Positions 7,830-39,710 of a stretch of 43,455 nucleotides of DNA are shown piece after piece. The notes beneath the pieces were generated by a model that worked only from the letters and a program-made list of their open reading frames with translations, had not been told where the DNA came from and made no database searches. Each line of letters starts with the position of its first letter. Position 1 is the first letter of the stretch. The DNA lies in assembly GCA_944325535.1 (NCBI GenBank), contig CALVAL010000009.1, positions 1 to 43,455 of the forward strand. Direction: 5' to 3'. Origin of the DNA: Candidatus Gastranaerophilales bacterium (lineage in GTDB: Bacteria > Cyanobacteriota > Vampirovibrionia > Gastranaerophilales > Gastranaerophilaceae). Both the position numbers and the translations under genes were made by a program.

Positions 7830-8631
7830 GATTTGTATGAGCATCCTCTACAATTTGGTTGATATCAGGATTTATTCCTGAACTATCTGTAGAGAGCCAT
7901 ACTAAATATTCGATGTTTCCTGCAGGTCCTTTAATAGATGAATAAGTTAGCCCTTTAATAGAGTACTCGAGTTCTTTTATACAATTTAGAACATTTTCTA
8001 TTACGCAAATATGAGTTTTTTTATCTTTTACAACTCCACCTTTTTCAACTAAATCTTTCCCTGCTTCAAATTGTGGCTTTATAAGACATACCATTTCATG
8101 GAAGCTAGGATTTAATAGGTTTTTTAAATTCGGTAATACTTTTTCTAGTGATATAAATGATAAATCCGATACTAATAGTTCAGCTACTGGCTCATTTTCG
8201 GAATAAATATCTTCAAATTTACAAATTTTTAGATTAGTTTTTTCAATAGTCTTAACTTTTTCAGAGCTTCTAATTTTCCAATCAAGCTGGCCATAGCCAA
8301 CATCTACAGCATATACAAATTTTGCTCCATTTTGTAAAAGACAATCTGTAAATCCGCCAGTAGATGCTCCTGCATCAAAGCAAATTCTATCTTCTACTTT
8401 TACATCAAAACTCTCAAGAGCTTTTTTTAATTTAAATCCTCCTCTTGAAACAAAAGGCATTGATTTTACTTTGAATTCGTATTCCTTAGCCGGATCTATT
8501 TGAAACCCAGCTTTTGTTATAACATCAGTTCCAATCATTACATTACCTGCTAAGATAGCAGCTGAAGCCTTACTTTTATTTTCAAAATACCCTAAATCAA
8601 CTAAATGTTTATCTAATCTTTCTTTTTTCAA
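7822..8631 (-). CDS. tlyA: TlyA-family rRNA 2'-O-methyltransferase / hemolysin-like protein
   Basis: 269 residues. An S4 RNA-binding domain occupies roughly 1-62, followed by an FtsJ/RrmJ-type Rossmann methyltransferase. The linker S-R-G-G-F-K-L-K-K-A-L and the SAM-binding motif D-A-G-A-S-T-G-G-F-T near 84-94 are characteristic. Characterised TlyA proteins 2'-O-methylate cytidines in 16S and/or 23S rRNA and affect capreomycin sensitivity. The start is a TTG at 8631 whose codon overlaps the stop of tatD as TTGA, so translation is probably coupled. No other plausible start keeps the S4 N-terminus intact. It is the last gene of a minus-strand run with pfkB-type kinase, nuclease and tatD. Confidence 0.88.
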   Translation of the reverse strand: MKKERLDKHLVDLGYFENKSKASAAILAGNVMIGTDVITKAGFQIDPAKEYEFKVKSMPFVSRGGFKLKKALESFDVKVEDRICFDAGASTGGFTDCLLQNGAKFVYAVDVGYGQLDWKIRSSEKVKTIEKTNLKICKFEDIYSENEPVAELLVSDLSFISLEKVLPNLKNLLNPSFHEMVCLIKPQFEAGKDLVEKGGVVKDKKTHICVIENVLNCIKELEYSIKGLTYSSIKGPAGNIEYLVWLSTDSSGINPDINQIVEDAHTNLN

Positions 8632-9386
8632 ATTTTAAATAACCTTTCTGCATTAGATGTTGTAATATCAATAATTTCTTCTAAAGGAATTTCTCTAATT
8701 TTTGAAATCTCTTCTGCAATATATCTGACATAGGCAGGCTTATTGGTTTTTCCTCGGAATGGTACCGGTGTAAGGTATGGGGAATCTGTTTCTAATACTA
8801 GTTTATCTAAAGGGACTTCTTTTGCAACTTCCTTTATATTTTTAGCATTTTTAAACGTAACGACTCCACCTATTGCAATATACCAGCCTTGTTTTACGCA
8901 TTCTTTCATAAATTCTAAACTACCAGAAAAACAATGAAAAAGTACTTCTGAAGATTTATTATGTTCTTTTAAGATATCATAAGTATCTTTATGAGCTTCT
9001 CTATCGTGAACCACAATTGGTAATTTAAATTTATTTGCAATTTTTATTTGTTTAATAAAAACTTCTTTTTGTAAATCTTTAAAAGATTTATCCCAATAAT
9101 AATCAAGTCCGATTTCGCCAATTGCAACTATTTTTTCAATATTAGTTTCTATAAAATTTTCTACTTCTAAAGAATATGTCTTAGCTTCTGTTGGAAAAAT
9201 TCCAAGCATTGAATATAAGTTGTCATATTTTTGGCCAAGAGAAAGAACTTTTTCCATAGTAGCAATTTCTACAGATGGAATTATAGCTTTTTTTACTCCA
9301 AATTCATTCATTTGTGCAAGAACATCATCAATAGGCTCTTCTGACATATCAATATGTGCATGTGTATCAATTAAATAATCCTTCAT
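8628..9386 (-). CDS. tatD: TatD-family metal-dependent DNase (YcfH/TatD-like)
   Basis: 252 residues, the usual length. Metal-ligand motifs of the TatD amidohydrolase-fold family are present: D-T-H-A-H-I-D at 7-13, G-E-I-G-L-D-Y near 92-98, H-D-R near 127, H-C-F-S-G near 151 and T-D-S-P-Y-L near 200. Family members are cytoplasmic Mg-dependent 3'-5' exonucleases or DNases implicated in DNA repair. The ATG at 9386 lacks a Shine-Dalgarno site. Instead a TGG-TATAAT extended -10 ends 6 nt upstream, implying a leaderless transcript that begins at the start codon. It overlaps tlyA by 4 nt. Confidence 0.9.
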   Translation of the reverse strand: MKDYLIDTHAHIDMSEEPIDDVLAQMNEFGVKKAIIPSVEIATMEKVLSLGQKYDNLYSMLGIFPTEAKTYSLEVENFIETNIEKIVAIGEIGLDYYWDKSFKDLQKEVFIKQIKIANKFKLPIVVHDREAHKDTYDILKEHNKSSEVLFHCFSGSLEFMKECVKQGWYIAIGGVVTFKNAKNIKEVAKEVPLDKLVLETDSPYLTPVPFRGKTNKPAYVRYIAEEISKIREIPLEEIIDITTSNAERLFKI

Positions 9387-21887: not shown

Positions 21888-21892
21888 AAATT

Positions 21893-21925
21893 AAAAAATC
21901 CCTGAAAATATATCAGGGATTTTTT
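21893..21925 (+). terminator. Rho-independent terminator after rubredoxin
   Basis: AAAAAATCCCTGA (21893-21905) pairs with TCAGGGATTTTTT (21913-21925) across a 7-nt loop, ending in a T run. The symmetric A/T flanks could make it work on both strands. Confidence 0.9.
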
Positions 21926-21939
21926 AATTTGTGAATTTA

Positions 21940-22717: not shown

Positions 22718-24049
22718 ATGGCATCAAATGATAGACTAAAATGTTCATTTTGTGGAAAAACTCAAGATCAGGTGAAAAAGCTAATAGCAGGGCCTGATGT
22801 TTTTATCTGCGATGAATGTGTTGAGTTGTGTAATGAAATTTTAGATGAAGAATTTTTTGAAGGCAAAGAGGGGATAAAAGATAGTACTGAAAAACATTCT
22901 GATGATGTTGAAGATAAACCTATTCCAAAACCTCATGAAATCAAAGAATACTTGGATCAGCATATAGTGGGTCAAGATGATGCAAAAAAAGTTCTATCTG
23001 TAGCTGTTTATAATCATTATAAGCGTTTAAAACACAATCAAAAAGAAGACACTAATGGAGTAGAAATTCAAAAATCAAATATTCTTTTAGTAGGTCCTAC
23101 TGGTAGTGGTAAAACTCTTTTAGCACAGACATTAGCAAAAATGTTGGATGTCCCTTTTGCTGTTGCTGATGCTACTACATTAACAGAAGCTGGTTATGTT
23201 GGTGATGATGTAGAAAATATCTTACTAAGATTATATCAAAACGCTGATTATGATGTAAAAAGGGCTGAAAAAGGTATTATTTATATTGATGAAATCGATA
23301 AAATTGCAAGAAAGTCTGAAAATACTTCTATCACAAGAGATGTATCAGGTGAAGGTGTTCAACAAGCTTTATTAAAACTGATAGAAGGTACTTTATCAAA
23401 TGTTCCGCCACAAGGTGGTAGGAAGCATCCTCAACAAGAAATGATTCAAATCGATACAAGTAATATTTTATTTATTGTAGGTGGTGCTTTTGTAGATTTG
23501 GATAAGATTATTGAACATAGGGTAAAAGACGGCTCTTCAATTGGATTTGGAAAGTCTGCACCTACTCAAGCTGAAAAAGAGCAGGCTTCTGCTAGATTAT
23601 TGAAAAAGCTACAGCCAGAAGATTTGTTGAAATTCGGTTTAATTCCTGAATTTATAGGTCGTATACCAGTCTATGCAGTATTAGACGCTTTGGATGAAAA
23701 TACTTTGAAAATGATTCTTACAGAGCCTAAGAATGCTATTTTAAAACAGTATAAATGTTTATTAGAAATGGATGGTGTAGAATTAGAATTTGAGCCAGAG
23801 GCTATTGATTTAATTGCTAAGAAAGCTATTAAACGAAAAACTGGTGCTAGAGCTTTGAGATCTATTGTAGAAGAGCTAATGCTCGATGTTATGTATGATA
23901 TTCCAACAAAGCATGATATGACTAAATTTACTATAACAAAAGATATGGTCGAAAAGCAGGATGAAATTGATAATCAGGCAGAATTAATTCATTTACCAAA
24001 TAGCAAGCCTGCAGATATATCGCAAAAAACTAGAGCAGAAATAGCATAA
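22718..24049 (+). CDS. clpX: ATP-dependent Clp protease ATPase subunit ClpX
   Basis: 443 residues. The zinc-binding domain has C9, C12, C31 and C34. Walker A G-P-T-G-S-G-K-T is at 126-133, followed by the pore-loop G-Y-V-G-D-D and Walker [10 protein letters not shown]. The conserved A-R-K-S-E-N and G-A-R-A-L-R-S motifs of ClpX are present. ClpX unfolds tagged substrates and feeds them to ClpP. An AGGAGA site precedes the ATG. The stop codon lies inside the left arm of a 44-bp palindrome that probably ends transcription on both strands. Confidence 0.96.
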
Positions 24050-24083
24050 AACTGAATCAAATTTGATTCAGTTTTATGCTATT
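24040..24083. terminator. 44-bp perfect palindrome, bidirectional terminator
   Basis: The left arm 24040-24061 is the exact reverse complement of the right arm 24062-24083 (22 bp, no loop in the DNA). The core has AAACTGAATC on the left and TCAGTTTTAT on the right, giving T-rich 3' sides on both strands. It sits between convergent clpX and the EF-hand gene and includes the clpX stop codon. Confidence 0.8.
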
Positions 24084-33017: not shown

Positions 33018-33852
33018 TAATTTATATTATATAGGTGGCGTTGTAAGAGATGAAATTTTAGGGGTTTCATCTCTTGATGTTGATTATACATATGAAGGTA
33101 ATGCGATAGAGTATGCTCAAAATTTTAATATAATCAAAGCAAATCCTGATTTTGGTACTGTAAGAATATTAGCTGACAATAAAGAAATTGATATTGCTTC
33201 GACTAGGTGTGAGTATTATCCCAGAAAAGGTCATTTGCCAAAAATATTAGAAATAGGTTGTTCTCTAAAAGAAGATTTGAAAAGACGTGATTTTACGATT
33301 AATGCAATTGCGAAAAGAACTTCTGATAATGAAATAATCGATATTTTTAACGGAAAAGAAGATATTTCTTCAAAAAGCTTAAGAGTTTTGCATGATGGGA
33401 GTTTTATAGACGATCCTTCAAGAATTTTGAGAGGGCTTAAGTTTTCAATAAGGTTTGGTTTTGAGCTTGAAAAGTGCACGAAATCCTTACAAGATTCATA
33501 TCTAAAAAATGTTAATTATGATATGAGTTATCATCGTATAAAAAAAGAATTGAAAGAAACATTCAATTTGAATAAAGATATTGCTTTTGAGAGGTTTTTG
33601 TCTCAAGGAATATATAAACTATTAGGAGAAAATCAAAAACTTCCTAGCGTAAATCAGTCAATCGAAGATCTTGTAGCTAGATTTGAATGTGAAAATATCT
33701 GGCTAATATATATGAGTTTTTTTGATTTATCCAATTTTGAGCTAACCAGGGCTGAAAAGAGAATAATAGAGTGGAATGAAAAATTGAAGAAACAAAGCCC
33801 AAATAATAACACACCAATAGAGAGTGTTATTTTTGATATGTTAAGAAAGTGA
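33001..33852 (+). CDS. tRNA nucleotidyltransferase / poly(A) polymerase family protein (short)
   Basis: 283 residues from the ATG at 33001, chosen because the protein then begins directly before the nucleotide-binding G12-G13-V-V-R-D motif and AAGG lies about 8 nt upstream; longer in-frame starts lie deeper within the DUF475 gene. Catalytic acids L-D26-V-D28, the R-R-D-F-T-I-N-A flexible-loop motif near 98-105 and the D-D-P-S-R-I-L-R motif follow in class II order. Typical CCA-adding enzymes of this class have 380-450 residues, so the C-terminal body/tail is reduced. It could be a CCA enzyme or one half of a split CC-/A-adding pair. Confidence 0.8.
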   Translation: MELKDNNLYYIGGVVRDEILGVSSLDVDYTYEGNAIEYAQNFNIIKANPDFGTVRILADNKEIDIASTRCEYYPRKGHLPKILEIGCSLKEDLKRRDFTINAIAKRTSDNEIIDIFNGKEDISSKSLRVLHDGSFIDDPSRILRGLKFSIRFGFELEKCTKSLQDSYLKNVNYDMSYHRIKKELKETFNLNKDIAFERFLSQGIYKLLGENQKLPSVNQSIEDLVARFECENIWLIYMSFFDLSNFELTRAEKRIIEWNEKLKKQSPNNNTPIESVIFDMLRK

Positions 33853-34739
33853 GTTTTAAACGTTCAATGTTAAAAAAACTTCTTAAAACAAAATTTCATT
33901 TAAGACCTGTATTTCTTCCTTTGATAAGATATAGAGCGAATAATTTAGGAAATTTCTTAGGAATAAATAATTGTAAGCGCGATGTCCCTATAATCGTTTC
34001 TTTAACTTCTTATGCTGAAAGGTTTGATGAATTATCTTTAGCAATTTATTCTTTACTTATGCAGTCTGTAAAGCCTGATAGAATAATATTGTGGCTTAGT
34101 GATGAATATAATGATTTAATGGAATTACCATATGAAATCACGAGATATATTAAAAATGGTCTGGAAATAAGATTTGTCAAAGATATTAAGTCTTATACAA
34201 AAATAATTTATGCATTAAAAGAGTTTTCTGATTCAATAATAGTAACTGCAGATGATGATATCTATTATCCTAAGAATTGGCTTGCAAATTTGTATTACTC
34301 ATATATTAGTTATCCTAATGATATTCAAGTTCATCGTGCTCATAGGGTTCTTTTAAATAAGAATGAAATTATGTCTTATGAAAAATGGGAAAAACATGTT
34401 AGTGAAGAATGTGCAAGATTTGATAATTTTCTAACAGGAGTGGGCGGTGTTCTTTATCCACCAAATTGTTTTAAAAAAGAAGTGTTAAGAGATGATTTGT
34501 TTTTAAAATTGGCTCCAACTGCAGATGATGTTTGGCTTTGGGCTATGGCTTTGTTGAGTAATAGAAAGATAAGAGTTGTTAAAAACCATATAAAAACTCT
34601 TGCTTCTTTAAATATAAAACGGCAAATATTTAATACAAGTAGAAATTTATATAAAAAAAACAGTAAGGGTGGTAATGATAAACAAATAAACGCACTTTTA
34701 GAATTCTATAGACTAAATATACTTTCTAAGTTAGTTTAA
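33849..34739 (+). CDS. Glycosyltransferase (GT-A fold, GT2-like)
   Basis: 296 residues. The start is a GTG overlapping the preceding stop as GTGA, consistent with translational coupling; an ATG at 33868 is out of frame and was not used. The segment I-V-S-L-T-S-Y-A-E-R near 50-59, the metal-binding T-A-D-D-D-I-Y-Y-P near 134-142 and G-V-G-G-V-L-Y-P-P near 197-205 fit a family of GT-A enzymes common in capsule and O-antigen clusters. It probably transfers a hexose onto a surface glycan at the inner side of the membrane. Donor and acceptor are unknown. It converges with the next GT2 gene, overlapping by 14 nt. Confidence 0.8.
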   Translation: MSFKRSMLKKLLKTKFHLRPVFLPLIRYRANNLGNFLGINNCKRDVPIIVSLTSYAERFDELSLAIYSLLMQSVKPDRIILWLSDEYNDLMELPYEITRYIKNGLEIRFVKDIKSYTKIIYALKEFSDSIIVTADDDIYYPKNWLANLYYSYISYPNDIQVHRAHRVLLNKNEIMSYEKWEKHVSEECARFDNFLTGVGGVLYPPNCFKKEVLRDDLFLKLAPTADDVWLWAMALLSNRKIRVVKNHIKTLASLNIKRQIFNTSRNLYKKNSKGGNDKQINALLEFYRLNILSKLV

Positions 34740-35586
34740 TTTCATAAATGAACTTATTATTTCCGATGTTTATTTTTATAATATTTTTATTTATTTTTAA
34801 GTATATTAGTCTAGCTCGCATATAGTTTAATAATAAGAGTGCTTTTATTATAGGATTTTTCTTTTTTATTGTGTGGTAGTATAGTGAAACATTAAAAAAG
34901 TATCTAATAAACCAGTTTTGGCTATCTTTATTAATGTAGCTGTCAGAATGAATACGCCAAAAAGTTAGTTTTTTATCAAGAAAATAAATTTTATGATCGG
35001 CTAGTTGTGCCCATAAATAATAGTCAAGAGAGGCTTTACATAAAGGTTTAAAATTGCATTTTAAAAGTAACTCTTTTTTTGTCATTACGCATGAAAATGT
35101 GGGAATTATATTTATTTTAGGAATAATATTAGCAAAATTTTCAATAAACATAGAGTGATCTAGGTTTATAAATAATTTATTAACATCATCAAAATATTTT
35201 TGGAATAGAGCTATTCTATTTTGGTCTTGGAACATTTCTACCCCAGTAAATACTAATTCTGCTCCTGTTTCTATAGCTTTTACTTTTTCTTCTATTGAAG
35301 TAGGAAAGAATTTATCATCACTCTCTAAAAATGCAATCCATTCTCCAGTTGCATATTCAATACCTTTTCTTAGAGACTTTGCTAGTCCTAAATTTTTATC
35401 GTTAATAATTAATTTAATTCTATTATCGGATAAGTATTTTTTGATAATATCAATAGAATTGTCGCTAGAAGCATCATCAATTATAATAAGTTCCCAATCT
35501 TTATATGTCTGATTAATTATACTATTAATAGCTTCGTCTAAATATTGGGCATAATTATAACTAGTCATTATTATTGAAATTTTCAT
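34726..35586 (-). CDS. GT2 family glycosyltransferase
   Basis: 286 residues. The GT-A signature I-S-I-I-M-T-S-Y-N-Y-A-Q-Y-L at the N-terminus, I-I-D-D-A-S-S-D near 34-41 and F-L-E-S-D-D-K-F near 86-93 identify GT2; the acidic motif binds the nucleotide-sugar metal. It likely adds a sugar during surface polysaccharide synthesis. The ATG lacks a Shine-Dalgarno site; a -10 element ends 6 nt upstream inside a palindrome shared with the divergent GT2 gene at 35630. The two divergent genes may therefore be co-regulated. Confidence 0.88.
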   Translation of the reverse strand: MKISIIMTSYNYAQYLDEAINSIINQTYKDWELIIIDDASSDNSIDIIKKYLSDNRIKLIINDKNLGLAKSLRKGIEYATGEWIAFLESDDKFFPTSIEEKVKAIETGAELVFTGVEMFQDQNRIALFQKYFDDVNKLFINLDHSMFIENFANIIPKINIIPTFSCVMTKKELLLKCNFKPLCKASLDYYLWAQLADHKIYFLDKKLTFWRIHSDSYINKDSQNWFIRYFFNVSLYYHTIKKKNPIIKALLLLNYMRARLIYLKINKNIIKINIGNNKFIYEIKLT

Positions 35587-35591
35587 AAAAT

Positions 35592-35624
35592 AATTTTACC
35601 TTAAAGTAATTTTAAGGTAAAATT
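35592..35624. promoter_or_regulatory. Symmetric palindromic bidirectional promoter
   Basis: Left arm 35592-35605 is the exact reverse complement of right arm 35611-35624 (14 bp), around GTAAT. Each strand reads TTTACC, a 17-nt spacer, then TAAAAT. The -10 elements end 6 nt before the ATG at 35630 (plus) and before the ATG at 35586 (minus). The palindrome could also be an operator. Confidence 0.6.
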
Positions 35625-35629
35625 TCTTT

Positions 35630-36457
35630 ATGAAATTAAGTATTATAACTTTAACTCATAATAAATTAAGCTATACCAAAAAGTTTGTAGAGAGTCTTTT
35701 TCGTTATACAGATGATTTTGAGTTGATAATTGTAGATAATGCTTCAACAGATGGTACAAGAGAATTTATCTCGAAAATACCTAATGTTAAGCTTATTTTG
35801 AATGAGGATAATTTAGGGTATTCTAAAGGGAATAATCAAGGTTTATCTATAGCAGAAGGTGAGTATATAGCTTTTTTTAATAATGATATTTTGCTTTATC
35901 CTAATTGGTTTGAAAATGTAGAAAAAGTTTTTCAACAAGAAAATGTAGGATTTATTTCTCCAAGACATATAAATCCTCATTATGATAATACTAATGAAAG
36001 ACATTATATTAAATTTTTTAGAAAAAATTTTAGTTATAAGAAAGATTATGAAAAAAATTTTGATGAATGTGTTTTTTCTTGTGTAGTAACAAAAAGAAGT
36101 GTAATTGATAATATTGGGGATTTTGATGAAAATTTTACACCTGCATTTTTTGATGATATTTATTTAAAATATCGTGCTATAGAAGCCGGATATGGTGTAT
36201 ACGTGGCAAATAATGTATGTTTTTTCCATTTTGGATCGATAACATCAGCTAATAATGATTACAATTTGAAAAAAAATAGAGAATATTATTTTTCGAAGTA
36301 TCCTTTTGCTGAATATCTGACTGCTTCAGCAGAAGAACGTGATATTTATAAGTTTATAGCTTATGATATGAAAAAGTTTCCGCTGAATTATATTTATACA
36401 GTTATTTTGATTTGGAAAAAAATAAAAAGACGAATTAAAAGATTAACTAAAGGTTAG
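35630..36457 (+). CDS. GT2 family glycosyltransferase (rhamnosyltransferase-like)
   Basis: 275 residues. Motifs are L-S-I-I-T-L-T-H-N near 3-11, I-V-D-N-A-S-T-D-G-T near 35-44, N-L-G-Y-S-K-G-N-N-Q-G near 62-72 and F-F-N-N-D-I near 83-88. This N-N-D variant is typical of WbbL-like rhamnosyltransferases, though the sugar is not certain. The C-terminus is basic. The gene appears leaderless: no ribosome binding site, and a -10 ending 6 nt before the ATG. The GT4 gene follows after 4 nt, forming a pair. Confidence 0.88.
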   Translation: MKLSIITLTHNKLSYTKKFVESLFRYTDDFELIIVDNASTDGTREFISKIPNVKLILNEDNLGYSKGNNQGLSIAEGEYIAFFNNDILLYPNWFENVEKVFQQENVGFISPRHINPHYDNTNERHYIKFFRKNFSYKKDYEKNFDECVFSCVVTKRSVIDNIGDFDENFTPAFFDDIYLKYRAIEAGYGVYVANNVCFFHFGSITSANNDYNLKKNREYYFSKYPFAEYLTASAEERDIYKFIAYDMKKFPLNYIYTVILIWKKIKRRIKRLTKG

Positions 36458-36461
36458 ATGT

Positions 36462-37682
36462 ATGAAAATATTATTTGATGCTACAGAGTTGTCTTATTTT
36501 TTAGAAAAATCAGGTCATCGAGCGGGTGTGTTTTTTGTTGCTTTGAATTTTTTTAGGGAGTTGAAAAAAAATAGTGATATTGATCTAACTTTTTTTTGTA
36601 ATTTTAAGCGCTATTTTTATTTAAAAGAAGTTCTTGCTAAAGTTGATGAGTTTAAAGAAATAGACTTATTACCTGAAAAATCTTTAACAAATTTATTTTT
36701 AGCTAAAATTAACTATATAGTTAAGAATGCTCCTTTAAAAATTAAGTATGCAGTATTGAGCTTTTTAAGATATTACGAAAATATATTCTATCTGCCAAAT
36801 AAAAAGAATCTTTTGCAACTAAAGCCTTTTCAGATATATTTAAGTCCTTTTTCTCCTCCTTCAGAGGAAATTTTATGTTCTTCTCATATAAAAAGATTTA
36901 TGATGCTCCATGATGTAATTCCTATTATTGAAGCTGGTGGAATACCTGATAATAAGAGACTTTGGTGCTATAGACTATATAATACGATTAATGAAAATGA
37001 TTTTTATTTAACAAACTCTGAAAATACAAAAAAAGATATTTTAAAATATTTTCCGTTTATAAAAGATGAAAATATAAGAAATGTTTATTTAGGTGCAGAT
37101 GATAATTTTTTTCCACAAAAGAGTGATGTGGATTATAAATATGTCTTTTCTCTTTGTACATTAGGTAAAAGAAAAAATTTAATTTTTGCGATAAGAAATT
37201 TTTTAGAGTTTATAAATCAATATAAAATAAATGATTTATATATGGTATTGGGTGGTGGAATTTGGAAGAAGTTTGAGAAAGAACTAATAAATTCTATAAG
37301 TAATTTTGATAAATCAAAAATAATTTTTAAAGGCTATGTTAATGATAATGATTTACCAAAACTTTATTCAAATGCTTTGATGTTCATTTATCCGTCCTTA
37401 TATGAGGGCTTTGGACTTCCTGTTTTAGAGGCGATGAAATGTGGCTGTCCAGTTATAACATCTAATACGTCTTCTTTACCAGAGGTAATTGGTGATGCAG
37501 GAATTAAAATTGATCCAACTAATGATGAGGATATGATTGGAGCATATAAAAAGATGTATTTTGATACATTTTATAGAGAATTATCTAGCCAAAGAGGGCT
37601 TATTAGATCTAAAAAGTTTTCTTGGGCTCTTTCTGTATCAAAGACTATTGAGTATATTTCTGAAAAAACGTCGGAAATTTGA
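36462..37682 (+). CDS. GT4 family glycosyltransferase
   Basis: 406 residues, GT-B fold. The C-terminal donor-binding domain has Y-P-S-L-Y-E-G-F-G-L-P-V-L-E-A-M, followed by G-C-P-V-I-T-S-N-T-S-S-L-P-E-V, a classic GT4 E-x7-E type signature. The N-terminal half is divergent from common GT4 proteins, as expected for the acceptor domain. It likely acts with the GT2 enzyme 4 nt upstream in glycan assembly. Its last 45 bases are antisense to the end of the convergent RgpF gene. Confidence 0.9.
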   Translation: MKILFDATELSYFLEKSGHRAGVFFVALNFFRELKKNSDIDLTFFCNFKRYFYLKEVLAKVDEFKEIDLLPEKSLTNLFLAKINYIVKNAPLKIKYAVLSFLRYYENIFYLPNKKNLLQLKPFQIYLSPFSPPSEEILCSSHIKRFMMLHDVIPIIEAGGIPDNKRLWCYRLYNTINENDFYLTNSENTKKDILKYFPFIKDENIRNVYLGADDNFFPQKSDVDYKYVFSLCTLGKRKNLIFAIRNFLEFINQYKINDLYMVLGGGIWKKFEKELINSISNFDKSKIIFKGYVNDNDLPKLYSNALMFIYPSLYEGFGLPVLEAMKCGCPVITSNTSSLPEVIGDAGIKIDPTNDEDMIGAYKKMYFDTFYRELSSQRGLIRSKKFSWALSVSKTIEYISEKTSEI

Positions 37683-38576
37683 AAGTATTTTGCGATCTAA
37701 AAATTTTGAGATCAGGAAAACTTCAAATGGAAGATATCTATGTATAAAATAAATAAACCTATCGTGATATTCAAGTTCAAAAATTGTTTTGGGATAATGC
37801 TCAGAATACCTTCGGAGTTGTTTATTTATTATTTCTATTGGATATGATTTAGGGACTATATCTTGCCAATTTTGTTTACCCCAAAATAGTAGGCCTTTTC
37901 TTACAATACTTGTTTTTAATAGTGGGAATTTATATTTTTGGGTTAATGATTCCCATTTAGATAATGTACAATTTTCAGTATGTTTAAATTTATTAATGAA
38001 TACACTGTATTTAAAACCTTTTTTTTGTAGACTTTTAGTGAGCATGATTTCATATTTTATTACAATATCCTCTTTGTTTTCTTCTCGTTGTATTGTCTCT
38101 AAGAATTGCTCAAAGTCATTAAAAGTTTGTTTCTTTAACAATATAAAATAAGACTGAATATGTGGAGAATAGCAATAATCATATCCATTTTTTATTTTTT
38201 TTATACCGAAACTGTTTTGAGTTAAACCCCAAAAATCGACTCTTTTTTTATCCATTTTATTAAAAATTGTTTTAAAAGAATAAAATGGTCCATAACAAGA
38301 ATCATTAACAAGTAATAATTCATCATATGTTATGTGTTTTGTTTTTGCAAAGAAATAACCTCTTTTATAAGAGCCGAAATCATATTCACCATGCTTTTGG
38401 GCAATACAATATTTTGTAATATCTTTTAACTTATCTAATTCTTCATTTTTTAAGTTGCAGTCTGATACGAAGATAATTGTCTCACAAATTTCTTGAAGAG
38501 ATTTTAGATAATAAATAACATAATCGTCTATAATGTTATCTTTATCCCAGTGTGCAAATATGCAAAGTCTTTTCAT
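37638..38576 (-). CDS. RgpF-family rhamnan synthesis protein F-like
   Basis: 312 residues. The segment Y-D-F-G-S-Y-K-R-G near 65-73, followed by L-L-L-V-N-D-S-C-Y-G-P-F near 87-98 and later F-W-G-L-T, is characteristic of the RgpF family. RgpF proteins take part in rhamnose-glucose polysaccharide synthesis in streptococci and in related surface glycans. The C-terminus is basic and aromatic. The ATG lacks a Shine-Dalgarno site; a TGC-TAAAAT extended -10 ends 6 nt upstream. The 3' end overlaps the GT4 gene by 45 nt. Confidence 0.85.
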   Translation of the reverse strand: MKRLCIFAHWDKDNIIDDYVIYYLKSLQEICETIIFVSDCNLKNEELDKLKDITKYCIAQKHGEYDFGSYKRGYFFAKTKHITYDELLLVNDSCYGPFYSFKTIFNKMDKKRVDFWGLTQNSFGIKKIKNGYDYCYSPHIQSYFILLKKQTFNDFEQFLETIQREENKEDIVIKYEIMLTKSLQKKGFKYSVFINKFKHTENCTLSKWESLTQKYKFPLLKTSIVRKGLLFWGKQNWQDIVPKSYPIEIINKQLRRYSEHYPKTIFELEYHDRFIYFIHRYLPFEVFLISKFLDRKILSNFRRFFRNILNSL

Positions 38577-39674: not shown

Positions 39675-39710
39675 AAAAAATCCTCTGAAATTAACTCAGA
39701 GGATTTTTTT
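39675..39710 (+). terminator. Rho-independent terminator after the SPFH gene
   Basis: TCCTCTGA (39681-39688) pairs with TCAGAGGA (39696-39703) over a 7-nt loop, extended by A6 before and T7 after. The A/T flanks may let it also end the convergent gene at 39721. Confidence 0.9.

Follow-up and report, generated by a model that had tools for sequence, protein, structure and literature searches.

Separate overlapping divergent promoters are a classical arrangement in bacteria. Another type has been described by Warman, Grainger and colleagues, in whose bidirectional promoters the two strands share a -10 element and the transcription starts lie 7–25 bp apart, most commonly 18 bp and also 10 and 23 bp (PMC12825309, PMC10268837). 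In E. coli the basal activity of bidirectional promoters is too low for competition, and one direction is repressed only when the other is strongly activated (Warman et al. 2026, PMC12825309). A TANNNT motif located about 10–12 bp before the start codon, without a Shine-Dalgarno (SD) sequence, is used to call leaderless (TA-led) bacterial genes (Zheng et al. 2011, PMC3160421).

The DNA analysed here (the window, 43,455 nt) corresponds to contig C9 in a draft genome of 2.0 Mb, referred to as G000; the G+C content is ∼29%. A gap of 43 bp (35587–35629) separates two divergent genes for GT2-family glycosyltransferases, the left gene (34726–35586, minus strand, 286 aa; Pfam Glycos_transf_2, PF00535, E = 7.7e-35) and the right gene (35630–36457, plus strand, 275 aa; same Pfam family, E = 4e-28). 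The right gene is followed after 4 bp by a gene for a GT4-family glycosyltransferase (36462–37682, plus strand; Pfam Glycos_transf_1, E = 1.8e-27), which presumably belongs to the same operon. A gene without Pfam match (33849–34739, plus strand) converges on the left gene, their 3′ ends overlapping by 14 bp; its homologues adjoin the right glycosyltransferase gene in relatives, with 66–75% identity.

Read along the plus strand, the gap region consists of CAT (35584–35586), the left arm AATTTTACCTTAAA (35592–35605), the centre GTAAT, the right arm TTTAAGGTAAAATT (35611–35624), TCTTT and the ATG at 35630. Direct reading bears out the perfect 14-bp inverted repeat of the original prediction: the right arm is the exact reverse complement of the left arm at all 14 bp, around a 5-bp centre. 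When mismatches are allowed the palindrome grows to arms of 38 nt with 79% complementarity, and a BLAST self-match covers 55 bp at 87%. The 14-bp repeat is well beyond chance: when dinucleotides are shuffled, a perfect inverted repeat of at least 14 bp with a loop of 3–10 nt arises in one out of 100 randomizations of the whole window, and in one out of 20,000 of the 43-bp gap. A terminator hairpin was considered and rejected as an explanation of the palindrome, which lies 5′ of both genes and ends 5 nt before each start codon. Three other perfect inverted repeats in the window (21888–21930, 24040–24083 and 39675–39709), with arms of 14–20 bp, are all located 3′ of genes, the one at 24040 between convergent genes, and are probably terminators.

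On each strand the palindrome carries the hexamers TTTACC and TAAAAT separated by 17 bp, which agrees to the base with what had been proposed. For the right promoter the -35-like hexamer occupies 35595–35600 and the -10 element 35618–35623 (plus strand); for the left promoter, read directly from the minus strand, they occupy 35615–35620 and 35592–35597. The right -35-like hexamer thus overlaps the left -10 element by 3 bp. Both -10 elements end 6 nt before the respective ATG (35586 on the minus and 35630 on the plus strand), also as proposed. With hexamers on each strand, a spacer inside the range of 16–18 bp and mutual overlap, the gap has the make-up of overlapping divergent promoters of the sigma-70 type.

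The exact spacing of 6 nt is a property of a wider class of genes. In 1.19 Mb of sequence drawn from three congeneric genomes, surveyed by means of mechanical open reading frames of at least 100 aa with the mechanical starts taken as called, a TAWWWT hexamer ends exactly 6 nt before the ATG in 18 of 327, 24 of 263 and 18 of 209 ATG genes (60/799 overall), compared with about 3 at neighbouring distances (binomial p 3e-8 to 1e-14). This leaderless class, which is directly computed, comprises 5–9% of the ATG genes in the genus. The consensus of its 60 members is close to TTTTATGnTAAAATnnnnTT-ATG, with T at -35 and -34 from the ATG. A T at -1 is present in 90% of the class versus 48% of other genes, and SD-like 4-mers in 5% versus 67%. 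As in the TA-led genes (Zheng et al. 2011, PMC3160421), both genes of the pair carry TANNNT at the same position and have no SD sequence at the usual distance; the difference is that here the signature flanks both sides of one 43-bp gap. Outside the pair, two further genes of the window show the 6-nt spacing. One is an RgpF-like gene (37638–38576, minus strand) with TAAAAT exactly 6 nt before the ATG, which is absent from the list of the original prediction and is predicted to be leaderless too; the other (8628–9386, minus strand) has TATAAT-6-ATG (GGTGGTATAATTTTTTTATG) and is likewise predicted to be leaderless.

The proposed absence of SD sequences at both genes holds with one qualification, the tetramer AAGG 12 nt before each ATG. 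Its presence at both starts could mean that the genes are not leaderless, with transcription beginning further upstream and AAGG acting as a weak SD sequence, and GGAG is indeed found before TAAAAT in several genomes whose right gene directly follows a co-directional one. The AAGG tetramers are, however, situated inside the promoters and beyond the distance of ∼4–11 nt before the ATG at which SD-like motifs peak in the same genome. An upstream start would furthermore place the 5′ end of the mRNA in the promoter or coding region of the opposite gene, and the exact 6-nt spacing belongs to a genus-wide class without SD sequences. A weak SD sequence is therefore regarded as very unlikely. The preferred reading is that both genes are leaderless, which the 6-nt class, the depletion of SD motifs and the weight matrix described below strongly support. 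A start 7 nt after the -10 element would fall on the A of the ATG; from this position and the T at -1, the predicted first transcribed nucleotide is 35586 for the left and 35630 for the right gene.

A weight matrix was built from 58 genes of the leaderless class, the gap pair being left out. The right and left promoters score 15.2 and 13.7 bits, both above the upper quartile of the class (leave-one-out median 10.1, 95th percentile 14.3), and rank in the top 3 and top 5, respectively, among 86,834 window positions in the matrix scan. The match at -35 is modest (0.9 bits). The matrix region from -21 to -13 matches the inner arms of the palindrome, with partial scores of 4.4 and 3.3, and the inner arm TTTAAGG fits the class consensus upstream of the -10 element (T at -20 to -17, A at -16 and G at -14). 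Together with the genus-wide statistics and the conservation described below, these scores strongly support two face-to-face overlapping leaderless promoters, whose activity we infer from their elements.

Two complete overlapping leaderless promoters in mirror arrangement within the 43-bp gap are probably the explanation of the symmetry. Two opposed promoters of the housekeeping (sigma-70-like) type would be superimposed such that each -35 element overlaps the -10 element of the other by 3 bp. The promoter of this lineage appears to be close to its own reverse complement, the -35 sequence TTTAC corresponding to GTAAA of the extended -10 element. Overlaying two such promoters with a spacer of 16–18 bp (17 in the gap) would therefore generate mirrored arms, since TTTAC is the reverse complement of GTAAA. 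Each transcript would have the A of the start codon as its first nucleotide and would be translated in leaderless form, and a dedicated regulator would be unnecessary. Self-complementarity of the promoter may thus account for most of each arm without an operator, but not for the covarying outer pairs described below.

The gap was compared among 65 species genomes of the genus, including G000. Close homologues of the right gene are present in 33 of the 65 genomes, G000 included, and in eight of them (G000, G022, G080, G027, G011, G068, G074 and G081) the right gene is paired divergently with a left gene of the same family as in G000. The distance between the start codons is exactly 43 bp in G000, G022, G080, G027 and G011, in all of which the best promoter is found at d = 6 on both sides. 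The gap in G068 measures 46 bp and its promoters score lower (6.2/4.5 at d = 7), and in G074 and G081 the gap is 59–60 bp, the left gene being leaderless and the right gene lying 22–23 nt from its -10 element. The original prediction had made its case dependent on the palindrome being conserved in relatives that keep the gene pair. The two -10 elements are found in all eight paired genomes, but the strong palindrome (15–16 of 18 pairs) only in G000, G074, G068 and G081; it is weaker in G027 (13/18), G080 and G011 (11/18 each) and G022 (9/18). By that measure four of the eight genomes speak against the prediction. The symmetry is real and partly conserved, but the two promoters are kept more widely than the palindrome.

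The gene pair itself has a complex history. For the right gene of G000 the nearest relative is found in G022 (78%), which disagrees with the lineage of the left gene, so that the locus looks mosaic. In the right-gene tree, paired genomes occupy several separate positions amid unpaired ones. Five genomes lacking the left gene have a homologue of the 33849–34739 gene (66–70% identical) that directly abuts the right gene, with TAAAAT-6-ATG in four of the five; the left gene was hence gained between these neighbours, or lost from there, probably more than once. A right gene standing alone keeps (G)TAAAAT-6-ATG in L007, L009, L016, L017, L046, L047 and L049, and in seven further genomes a different, second left gene is located opposite the right gene, 45 bp away.

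The pattern of conservation bears on two other explanations of the palindrome. It could be the operator of a dimeric transcription factor which represses or switches both genes, beside or instead of the mirror promoter. A palindrome of 14–16 bp is kept in the four diverged pairs of G000, G068, G074 and G081, whose left proteins are 55–68% identical. Its presence follows a single left-gene lineage: the genomes with the strong palindrome are those with left genes most similar to the G000 one (57–68% identity, versus 49–55% for the remaining left genes). Some of the outer pairs covary (C-G, T-A and T-A in G081 versus A-T in G000), and they lie beyond the hexamers, where two promoters do not require them. 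Against an operator, the palindrome is weak in four relatives which keep the pair, and the -10 elements are still present on both sides. A search of G000 and the rest of the genus for another copy with identical inner arms was negative, giving no sign of a regulon. In addition, Pfam reveals no regulator-like domain among the ten neighbouring genes, and a regulator could be encoded elsewhere in the genome. An operator is hence considered improbable. Somewhat more plausible, though still unlikely, is that a mutational process (template switching or quasi-palindrome correction) in two overlapping promoters completed their symmetry, the symmetry having no function of its own; such a process is compatible with the mirror arrangement of two promoters. 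The strong palindromes in four pairs and the imperfect ones (9–13 of 18) in four others, all with the same promoters, are consistent with such an origin, which would also account for the covarying pairs outside the hexamers; on the other hand, no closely related pair of before and after states was found.

Similar arrangements occur at other loci, where gene names are assigned from N-terminal sequence only (miaA, TPR, coaBC, mnmG, cysS, purA, glyA, typA, era and maf). In the 65 genomes the pattern CATN6ATWWTA-N16-24-TAWWATN6ATG (gap of 40–48 bp) has 43 matches, compared with 5 for the reversed control. Double-leaderless matches with two real open reading frames occur with gaps of 43–48 bp at unrelated genes (miaA-like/TPR and coaBC-like/mnmG-like). 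Strict double-leaderless pairs are found at every spacing tested, with a modest excess at 43–46 bp (∼5 versus ∼3 per spacing). A recurrent match with a 58-bp gap looks, by eye, like conserved coding sequence. The combination of symmetry and two leaderless starts had been called unusual. This stands only in part, as leaderless genes form 5–9% of the ATG genes and divergent double-leaderless pairs recur well above the control.

The palindromic pattern TTTTACNNTAAA-N3-9-TTTANNGTAAAA was found in 18 of 383 genomes of the order, a raw count only ∼2 times that of the reversed control (18 versus ∼9 genomes, the control being compared by count). Seventeen of the 18 matches lie between divergent genes, in regions that account for 2.5% of the sampled sequence; counted by independent locus, this applies to five of six sites. 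The divergent sites are cysS/purA, glyA/typA, era/maf, one unnamed pair and the glycosyltransferase pair. Several sites score as promoters both ways, usually with one direction stronger. Between cysS-like and purA-like genes a near-palindromic TTTTACTATAAA-N4-TTTATAGTAAAA is present in L197, L198, L200–L203 and L205 (genus g33 of the same family), where cysS is predicted to be leaderless and purA has a leader with an SD sequence; L199, L204 and L206 have a similar element between their glyA-like and typA-like genes. The palindromes of other genera are thus located at unrelated housekeeping genes and differ in their inner letters, with the promoter hexamers being the same, which again argues against an operator. 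Tentatively, at somewhat less than even chance, the palindromic promoter of this bacterial family (-35 element TTTTAC, the reverse complement of GTAAAA in the extended -10 element; spacer 16–18 bp) fires both ways and represents a recurrent second bidirectional geometry, with starts ∼44 bp apart, separate from that of the shared -10 promoters.

Within the genus, G057 and G009 each have a near-palindrome that is not between divergent genes; in G009 a 34-bp palindrome, ATTTTACATGGACAAA-AA-TTTGTCCATGTAAAAT (L117:1876–1909), lies between two same-strand genes. Elsewhere in G000, beyond the window, four copies or near-copies of GTAAAATTACAAAATG are spaced at exact intervals of 102 bases (C3:7214–7535), an arrangement that points to a tandem repeat with a promoter-like motif.

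With regard to expression, the established footprint size of the polymerase implies that simultaneous binding in both orientations should be sterically impossible. Polymerase would occupy one orientation at a time and the two genes would compete for binding; the mutual exclusion or strict balance of the original prediction may follow from this footprint size. By analogy with the E. coli promoters, independent weak expression would be expected as the default, and under weak basal transcription both genes are probably expressed independently. As 43 bp leave room for little else, the gene pair offers a compact natural system in which to study polymerase competition. If the starts were mapped as predicted, the gap would provide a second simple rule for obtaining bidirectional transcription from a symmetric promoter, with a geometry beyond the 7–25 bp definition, and would extend the list of bacterial families in which an appreciable fraction of genes is leaderless. 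A literature search, with most subscription journals outside its reach, returned no direct precedent for palindromic or face-to-face leaderless promoters.

Like the shared -10 promoters of Warman, Grainger and colleagues, the gap comprises a short symmetric DNA segment from which both strands are predicted to be transcribed, with one polymerase orientation at once. Unlike in those promoters, the -10 elements (35592–35597 and 35618–35623) are separate, 20 bp apart, and each overlaps the -35 element of the other promoter; the predicted starts at 35586 and 35630 are 44 bp apart, outside the range of 7–25 bp. Because of both differences, as judged from the predicted starts, the gap is not assigned to the shared -10 type, although a similar mode of working is expected. 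With classical overlapping divergent promoters it has in common two distinct promoters with overlapping polymerase footprints, and it differs from these in its near-perfect mirror symmetry, in the predicted leaderless state of both genes and in that no operator or regulator gene is evident. The gap is a real but fairly ordinary variant of the overlapping divergent promoter, leaderless on both sides.
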